From Candidatus Nyctobacter psychrophilus (GTDB lineage Bacteria > Vulcanimicrobiota > Vulcanimicrobiia > Vulcanimicrobiales > Vulcanimicrobiaceae): 64,000 nucleotides of DNA. The notes below the pieces were generated by a model. The model was given only the letters and a program-made list of their open reading frames with translations. It made no database searches and had not been told where the DNA came from. Where the stretch lies: the NCBI GenBank assembly GCA_014305025.1, contig JACRTY010000011.1, positions 1 through 64,000 of the forward strand, written 5' to 3'. Every line of letters starts with the position of its first letter. The first letter of the stretch is position 1. Made by a program: the position numbers and the translations under genes. This document shows positions 50,474 to 56,137 of the stretch, piece by piece.

Positions 50474-50644
50474 GTGACGTTCGGCTATCATTGCGAAGAG
50501 TGCGAAGAGGCGGTGTGGTCGACAGCACCGCGCGGTGAACTCGAGTGGTTGTGCAACCGCGAGCACGTCGCGCGCGAGGTAGCCAAGCATGTGCAGGGTG
50601 GCCTCGCCACGGGGCACAACCTCCTGCTGACGCGTCGCCCCTGA
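50474..50644 (+). CDS. 56-residue paralogue of the 51425 protein with an internal deletion
   Basis: A GTG at 50474 opens a frame matching the gene at 51425 almost codon for codon (VTFGYHCEECEEAVWS; GELEWL; NREHVAREVAKHVQ). The copy lacks 13 codons near the C-terminus, in frame, and then rejoins at LLLTRRP. Conserved HCEEC could bind a metal. It may be functional or a decaying duplicate. Its stop lies 2 bases from the end of the convergent toxin pseudogene. Confidence 0.55.
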   Translation: MTFGYHCEECEEAVWSTAPRGELEWLCNREHVAREVAKHVQGGLATGHNLLLTRRP

Positions 50645-51424: not shown

Positions 51425-51634
51425 ATGACGTTCGGTTATCACTGCGAAGAGTGCGAGGAGGCGGTGTGGTCGACGGCGCCGCGCGGCGAACTCGAGTGGT
51501 TGCGCAACCGCGAGCACGTCGCGCGCGAGGTGGCAAAGCACGTGCAGGCGGGCTTGGACACGTGGATCGTCGAGGGACTCGATTTCCTCGACCGCCACAG
51601 CGGCCACAGCGTCGTCTTGACGCGGCGCTCGTAG
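51425..51634 (+). CDS. 69-residue protein with an HCEEC motif
   Basis: A small soluble protein, MTFGYHCEECEEAVWS at the start and a helical middle with REHVAREVAKHVQAG. The HC-EEC group could coordinate zinc, but only one Cys pair is present, so a full ribbon is not formed within one chain. The near copy at 50474 supports it being a coding gene. No family is recognised. Confidence 0.55.
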   Translation: MTFGYHCEECEEAVWSTAPRGELEWLRNREHVAREVAKHVQAGLDTWIVEGLDFLDRHSGHSVVLTRRS

Positions 51635-55335: not shown

Positions 55336-55740
55336 ATGGAGAATGCGTCCGTGAGCGATCAAGCCACTCAGAGCGGCGAAGTTTACCGCCGGAGGTACGT
55401 GCGGGTCGCGGTCGCCATGCCGGTTTCCTACACGCGCGACGGCGACGATGCGACCAACTCTGGTCACATCAGCGACTTGGGCGGCGGGGGCGTCCGCCTC
55501 GCGAGCGACGAGGACCTGCCGCTCGGCTCCGTGTTGCTCTTGCGTTTTGCGCTGCCCGACGTCGGCCGGGATTTGGTTGCCCGCGGCCGCATTGTGCTGT
55601 CGTTCTACAACGCCGAGGACAAGCGTTTCTTCCACGGCATCGCTTTCACGCAGATCGACCCGCGCGATCAGGAAGAGATCATCCGCTACGTGTCAGGCGA
55701 AGTCCAACGCCTAGCGCTCGAAGGCGACTCCACCGACTAA
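55336..55740 (+). CDS. PilZ-domain protein (c-di-GMP receptor)
   Basis: A 134-residue protein. RRRYVRV supplies the RxxxR c-di-GMP motif and SDLGGGGVRL the (D/N)xSxxG-like motif with Gly in place of Ser. IDPRDQEEIIRYV is the usual C-terminal helix. It may link c-di-GMP to envelope or motility functions. An ATG at 55336 is used; the next GTG is at 55351. A long inverted repeat follows. Confidence 0.9.
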   Translation: MENASVSDQATQSGEVYRRRYVRVAVAMPVSYTRDGDDATNSGHISDLGGGGVRLASDEDLPLGSVLLLRFALPDVGRDLVARGRIVLSFYNAEDKRFFHGIAFTQIDPRDQEEIIRYVSGEVQRLALEGDSTD

Positions 55741-55791: not shown

Positions 55792-55899
55792 GGTAAGGGG
55801 CTTTGGGTTCGCGTGTGGCGAGGAGCCTAGAGCCGAAGTGGCCTATGGCCATGAGGCTCGTAGCGACGACGTCCACACGCGAACCCAAAGCCCCTTACC
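55792..55899. repeat. 108-base element with perfect 27-base inverted arms
   Basis: Arms at 55792-55818 and 55873-55899 are perfectly complementary over 27 bases. The 54-base centre can itself fold, with a TGGCC/GGCCA hairpin at its tip inside a GAGCC/GGCTC stem. It sits between convergent genes, and the right arm contains the stop codon of the 55895-56137 gene. No transposase or target duplication is seen. It could be a bidirectional terminator, a miniature mobile element or a structured RNA. Confidence 0.85.
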
Positions 55900-56137
55900 G
55901 GTGGCCGCTACCCATGAAGCCATAGAAAAAGTAGCGGTTGCCTTCGGAGGTCTCGATCACGATGCGCGTGTCTTCGATCGTGGCGCTCGCAATGGTCTTG
56001 TCGACGAGCGTGTCGAGAATGGACTGCGTCTGCTCGAATTCCGCTTCACGTAATGCGTCGGGATCAACCTCGAGCAGGTTGAGGAGGTCGCTGAGGCCGT
56101 GACCGGCGGGTTCGGAGGGGTCGGACCCGATTGCCAT
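55895..56137 (-). CDS. small acidic hypothetical protein
   Basis: An 80-residue protein with helical acidic text (SDLLNLLEVDPDALREAEFEQTQS) and a beta-like C-terminus (TRIVIETSEGNRYFFYGFMGSG). AGAGGAG precedes the ATG at 56137. It is convergent with the PilZ gene across the inverted repeat and divergent from the FHA gene. No family recognised. Confidence 0.65.
   Translation of the reverse strand: MAIGSDPSEPAGHGLSDLLNLLEVDPDALREAEFEQTQSILDTLVDKTIASATIEDTRIVIETSEGNRYFFYGFMGSGHR

Follow-up and report, generated by a model that had tools for sequence, protein, structure and literature searches.

A palindromic repeat, probably of the ERIC/IRU class, lying on a stop codon in Candidatus Eremiobacterota

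What is a 108-base palindrome with perfect arms doing between two convergent genes? The element lies at 55792-55899 of the window, by which the whole 64-kb stretch of DNA analysed is meant, and consists of two 27-nt arms that are 100% complementary and separated by 54 nt. It is the sole perfect 27-bp inverted repeat with a spacer of at most 100 in the window, and at 12 bp nearly all inverted-repeat matches there are part of it. The plus strand folds at -90.2 kcal/mol, against -45.0 +/- 3.6 for shuffled sequences (z -12.6), and the minus strand at -86.7 kcal/mol (z -10.4). The preliminary description of this DNA had pointed to perfect 27-base arms, a centre that also folds and a convergent-gene setting that includes one stop codon, and each of these is present: the computed structure continues through the centre with purine-rich internal loops, a PilZ gene runs towards the element from the left, and an 80-aa open reading frame (ORF) on the other strand ends inside the right arm. 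The features are as follows.

55336-55740, plus strand: left flanking gene, PilZ domain protein (Pfam E 4e-14), ending 51 nt before the element
55792-55899, plus strand: whole ERIC-like palindromic repeat, written in its best-folding orientation
55792-55818, plus strand: left (5') outer arm, 27 nt, pairing perfectly with the right arm
55819-55872, plus strand: conserved core, helices split by purine-rich internal loops (GA; GAA opposite GA)
within 55819-55872, plus strand: apical helix of the core, GTGGCC/GGCCAT, with a 3-nt loop
55873-55899, plus strand: right (3') outer arm, 100% complement of the left arm
55895-55897, minus strand: TAA stop of the convergent 80-aa ORF, inside the right arm, its usual position in the family
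55895-56137, minus strand: abutted gene, the 80-aa ORF, with no Pfam family

The evidence set out below makes it very probable that the element is a mobile repeat of the ERIC type. Elsewhere in the window, two 140-nt direct repeats that are 89% identical lie 951 bases apart (50475-50614 and 51426-51565).

A dispersed family: conserved core, covarying arms

The palindrome is one copy of a dispersed multicopy family. In its own genome (3.22 Mb in 58 contigs, Ca. Eremiobacterota), blastn returned 20 matches, including the reverse match of the element to itself, and a covariance model of the element (R1) recovered 17 strong full-length copies besides fragments. Uniqueness, the outcome that the preliminary description had set against mobility, is thus not borne out. 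When 16 of these copies are aligned, the core is almost invariant, while the outer arms are different in each copy yet complementary; arm identity between copies falls to about 50% with pairing kept. The strong selection proposed earlier can accordingly be specified as selection on pairing, whereas the recent origin proposed with it finds no support for this copy, the maximum identity between any two copies in the genome being 77%. The copies form one long stem-loop of about 104-108 bp, and measured outwards from the core they share an arm length of about 21-23 bp.

Copies are unevenly distributed among relatives. R1 matched 24 of 60 related genomes. All 24 belong to the same family or order as the window, and the 14 genomes from a third family in the class gave no match. 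Copy number among related genomes ranges from 0 to about 70, the highest value belonging to one relative (G011). Some loci (L149, L087, L108, L170 and G011:C10:72581-72842) carry head-to-head pairs about 20-220 nt apart or adjacent tandem partial copies, resembling BIME arrays. Across 84,980 genomes, the core pattern occurs in 50 stretches, nearly all from Ca. Eremiobacterota bins or one uncultured related bin, a result that identifies the phylum. A search of the same genomes for the exact arms gave no match because the arms differ in every copy. Rfam 15 yielded no above-threshold match to the element in the window, in six loci or in a copy from Rheinheimera, and a viral origin was rejected, the viral contigs being without a core match.

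The pairing is documented by covariation. RNAalifold found compensated double changes in 33 of 42 pairs among the 16 own-genome copies. Counts against shuffles gave a covariation of 0.523 (0.176 when shuffled) and pairing in 91.9% of cells, compared with 33-45% when partners were slid. A second model, R2, was built from 45 Eremiobacterota copies, in which double changes occur in 37 of 42 pairs, covariation reaches 0.850 (0.203 shuffled) and 94.7% of cells are paired (36-41% in slid controls).

Such covariation, the purine-rich internal loops and a wobble bias confined to one strand look RNA-like, and sites common to several species retain compensated arms. All of this would suit a conserved structured RNA, either a 3'-UTR element or a small RNA, produced from the plus strand, selected in place and spread only via gene duplication. 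GA loops and GAA-opposite-GA loops suit sheared G-A pairs, which form in RNA or in single-stranded DNA. A copy number that varies from none to about 70 and a site found empty in a sister species count against such an RNA, as do the absence of any conserved sequence upstream of the copies and further points taken up below, and this explanation is considered doubtful.

Placement at gene 3' ends and the strand that folds

Copies of the family tend to abut an opposite-strand gene at its 3' end. Among 163 distinct copies, the right-hand gene is on the opposite strand in 136, and the stop codon of this convergent gene falls between -20 and +5 nt from the element's right end in 116; the left-hand gene's stop occupies the same range at the left side in only 18, all of these counts being approximate, as genes outside the window were called by a simple codon-usage script trained on the window. 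In about one third of copies, both flanking genes run the same way. The abutted genes are diverse and many are housekeeping genes (rpsD, rpsJ, tuf, groEL, clpX, atpG, map and coxA, named by eye from sequence), and an element is found at rpsD in four genera.

A strong fold between convergent genes is also what an unusually long intrinsic, bidirectional terminator would offer. Over the 163 copies, however, there is no enrichment of T after the right arm or of A before the left arm, and without a U tract the element is not an intrinsic terminator. The conserved, strand-specific core and the one third of copies that lie between same-direction genes facing the element also argue against intrinsic termination, which is very unlikely. 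The earlier remark that the palindrome exceeds a normal terminator was correct.

The imperfect pairs within the arms bear on which strand matters. On the plus strand, mismatches take the form of G-U rather than A-C in a ratio of 77:6 in the model alignment. The excess is not an artefact of covariance-model alignment, as scoring G-U and A-C alike still gives 258:29, and this ratio therefore identifies the folding strand as the one antisense to the abutted gene. The plus strand is also the better folder in 152 of the 163 copies, by 9 kcal/mol on average. The G-U share is 0.91 in convergent settings, 0.90 where same-direction genes oppose the element and 0.79 where both genes run with it, and this near independence of flanking-gene arrangement speaks against a structured RNA. 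The folded antisense strand is likely to be the selected form; whether that form is single-stranded DNA rather than RNA is judged an even question.

The placement directly after stop codons, with roughly one copy in three flanked by genes that run the same way, is what would be expected of an mRNA hairpin in the minus-strand transcript of the abutted gene, where it could act as a stabiliser, a processing site or an attenuator between co-transcribed genes, as has been proposed for ERIC in Yersinia. Enterobacterial ERICs are reported to lower upstream transcripts via RNase E in an orientation-dependent manner (reviewed in PMC2229807; PMC10969869). The arm mismatches, however, weaken the minus-strand hairpin, placing A-C where the plus strand has G-U, the opposite of what selection on such a hairpin predicts, and an effect on mRNA could still be a by-product of insertion. 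The mRNA hairpin is a serious contender, though the balance is tilted against it.

The attC sites of integrons provide a parallel for the strand. These are hairpins at the stop codon of an ORF whose antisense strand folds and whose sequence is variable while the structure is kept. By analogy with them, the strand bias argues that a single-stranded DNA intermediate may fit better than an mRNA hairpin. The present element follows the same logic, being a hairpin at a stop codon, right after an ORF, with the antisense strand folded. It differs in lacking the conserved end boxes (RYYYAAC...GTTRRRY), in being conserved at its centre instead of its ends and in abutting housekeeping genes instead of lying in cassettes, so that an attC site, or a direct relative of one, is very unlikely.

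Distribution beyond Eremiobacterota and relation to ERIC

Two of the core-pattern stretches come from outside Eremiobacterota, one from Rheinheimera riviphila and one from a Nanoarchaeota bin. Both show the same fold, and the model matches these genomes at E 8.6e-12 and 3.2e-11, respectively. Copies were found in 42 of 197 genomes of the family to which the Rheinheimera genome belongs, and R3, a broader covariance model, places copies in at least 124 of 398 Pseudomonadota genomes (nine candidates scored per genome). These matches overturn the view that the element is confined to Eremiobacterota. In the Nanoarchaeota phylum, R3 detected the element in one of 194 genomes, namely the original bin, and with no second carrier there a transfer or a rare lineage is suggested. 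This bin (G061) contains two copies (L237 and L238), with arms of about 25 bp, beside genes resembling archaeal RPA and RadA by sequence.

The Pseudomonadota copies repeat the arrangement described above. An antisense gene or tRNA end lies within 25 nt of the right end in 45 of 61 copies, a plus-strand gene ends at the left in 2 of 61, and the arm mismatches are again biased (GU:AC = 147:23). The copies adjoin tRNA-Ile or tRNA-Ala in rRNA spacers and the 3' ends of guaB, dnaK, nqrF, mreB, secA, atpD, eno and others (named by eye). At five gammaproteobacterial loci (L236, L239, L240, L244 and L254), the element lies directly after tRNA-Ile or tRNA-Ala in the spacer of an rRNA operon, in antisense orientation, and one genome of this set (G064) has four matches of identical score. 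Copies of this kind bear on the structured-RNA explanation: they are antisense to rRNA transcription and fill the tRNA-Ile/tRNA-Ala spacer, where a promoter would no longer fit. A small RNA transcribed from a promoter of its own was accordingly rejected, the rRNA spacers being too tight and an upstream motif absent.

First recognised around 1990, ERIC repeats have become a common tool for typing strains. To our knowledge, neither the agent that mobilises them nor the strand that matters has been established. In work by De Gregorio et al. from 2005, ERICs that overlap stop codons reportedly prefer one orientation. ERIC is described as a mobile element with TA termini and TA target duplication (PMC2229807; PMC2759123), and its reported hosts are Enterobacteriaceae and Vibrionaceae (PMC10969869).

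The present family includes enterobacterial ERIC as a distant relative, according to the covariance models. R2, whose training set held no ERIC or gammaproteobacterial sequence, places seven of seven enterobacterial ERIC copies in register on the plus strand, and R3 agrees on the placement. Model E-values are rough: R2 gives 2.2e-7 for Klebsiella, 5.4e-6 for Pantoea, 1.1e-4 for E. coli F128 and 0.0038 for the fourth-best copy, with weak matches at L332, L295 and L333 (0.016 to 0.27), and the chromosomal E. coli ERIC itself is weak on this rough scale (0.055 with R2, 0.01 with R3). On the opposite strand of the ERIC hairpins, R2 scores far lower or finds no match. The plus strand of ERIC is the better folder in all seven copies, and where a gene end was seen on the right (E. 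coli ybhI, Pantoea and Rahnella), the gene was antisense in three of three cases. Some copies share their apical part, GGAGCTTACnnnnGTAAGTGA, with ERIC.

Like ERIC, the element is a long single stem-loop that is multicopy and intergenic and lies beside gene 3' ends in the same orientation, and the two have in common a core AAGGCG ... CAACG and a GA internal loop under the apical helix. The element is shorter (about 104-108 bp against 127), has a shorter middle part, mostly carries a GAA/GA loop where ERIC has GA/GA, has more diverse arms, lacks general TA ends and belongs to another phylum. Since Ca. Eremiobacterota is outside the reported host range, the element is assigned to a related branch and not to ERIC proper; what is new is that the mobile palindromes of the ERIC/IRU class have a branch in Eremiobacterota, which sits on a stop codon.

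Other palindromic repeats resemble the element in part. Correia/NEMIS of Neisseria, pneumococcal RUP and other MITEs are likewise non-autonomous palindromes of about 100-150 bp that enter transcripts (PMC2229807), but they have conserved terminal repeats instead of a conserved centre with variable arms. REP/BIME sequences with their RAYT (TnpA-REP) are also palindromic and dispersed, although REPs span 20-40 bp and carry a tag at one end (PMC3733652), while the element measures about 105 bp and has no conserved foot; an identity with REP/RAYT was rejected on size and on the missing foot.

With the element in at least two bacterial phyla, ERIC-type repeats are far more widespread than thought, and the homologues from a second phylum, whose copies number in the hundreds and covary naturally, constitute a comparative data set. 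Three rules are suggested: selection acts on the strand antisense to the abutted gene; the element's right end lies at the 3' end of a gene, be it a stop codon or the end of a tRNA; and conservation is concentrated in the core, with variable arms. Each is testable, and together they would narrow the hunt for the mobilising enzyme. A broader proposal, put forward tentatively, is that ERIC-type palindromes form one ancient class spanning Eremiobacterota, Pseudomonadota and one Nanoarchaeota bin, whose selected form would be the folded antisense strand. This strand would amount to a recombination substrate of single-stranded DNA, put at housekeeping-gene 3' ends, also within rRNA operons, by machinery yet to be found. 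If true, this cross-phylum reading would replace that of ERIC as an mRNA hairpin limited to enterobacteria and vibrios.

Proposed movement and retention

Mobility, as suggested in the preliminary description, is supported by the many dispersed copies, their variable number among relatives and an empty site in genus g38. Four of the seven copies in genome G038 are at sites also occupied in G039. At a further site (L185), G039 has the same convergent genes, with flanks 90-92% identical, and lacks the element: it reads GGCATCTAGAGAGATCTCTTCTCTACGC where G038 has GGCATCTGAAACGATCTCC...GATCGTTTCTCTACGC with the element between. A G039 copy located after sucD is absent from G037. The sister species thus support mobility by a clean empty site at one locus and an absence at another, though the empty site could be a loss.

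Other sites have been held for long. A shared copy (L182/L302) has changes on both arms, and sites common to several genera (rpsD in four; nqrF and guaB repeatedly), with arms divergent yet paired, suggest a role at the site itself and not mobility alone. Compensated arms at sites retained for long argue for an in-place function too, which is compatible with selection on the folded strand.

Overall, the explanation that accounts best for these results, and that is considered probable, is a non-autonomous palindrome of the ERIC/IRU class that moves by way of a folded strand, inserts at stop codons or tRNA ends and is then retained. The element would move as, or be recognised as, a folded single strand (the plus strand, antisense to the abutted gene). 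Insertion would take place at or beside stop codons or tRNA 3' ends, where nothing breaks. Retention could follow if a strong hairpin right after a gene is harmless, or useful as a 3' boundary or processing site of the RNA.

The ends of the element offer a further comparison. TA occurs at the same offset on both ends in only 36 of 163 copies, which weighs against the preferred explanation; the window copy has it at 55794-55795 and 55896-55897, where a TA duplication and arm pairing are not separable because the arms are palindromic. In a group of small Pseudomonadota genomes (L268-L294), conserved outer ends, AACTGTTCAG...CTGAATAGTT, extend past the arms like true terminal inverted repeats.
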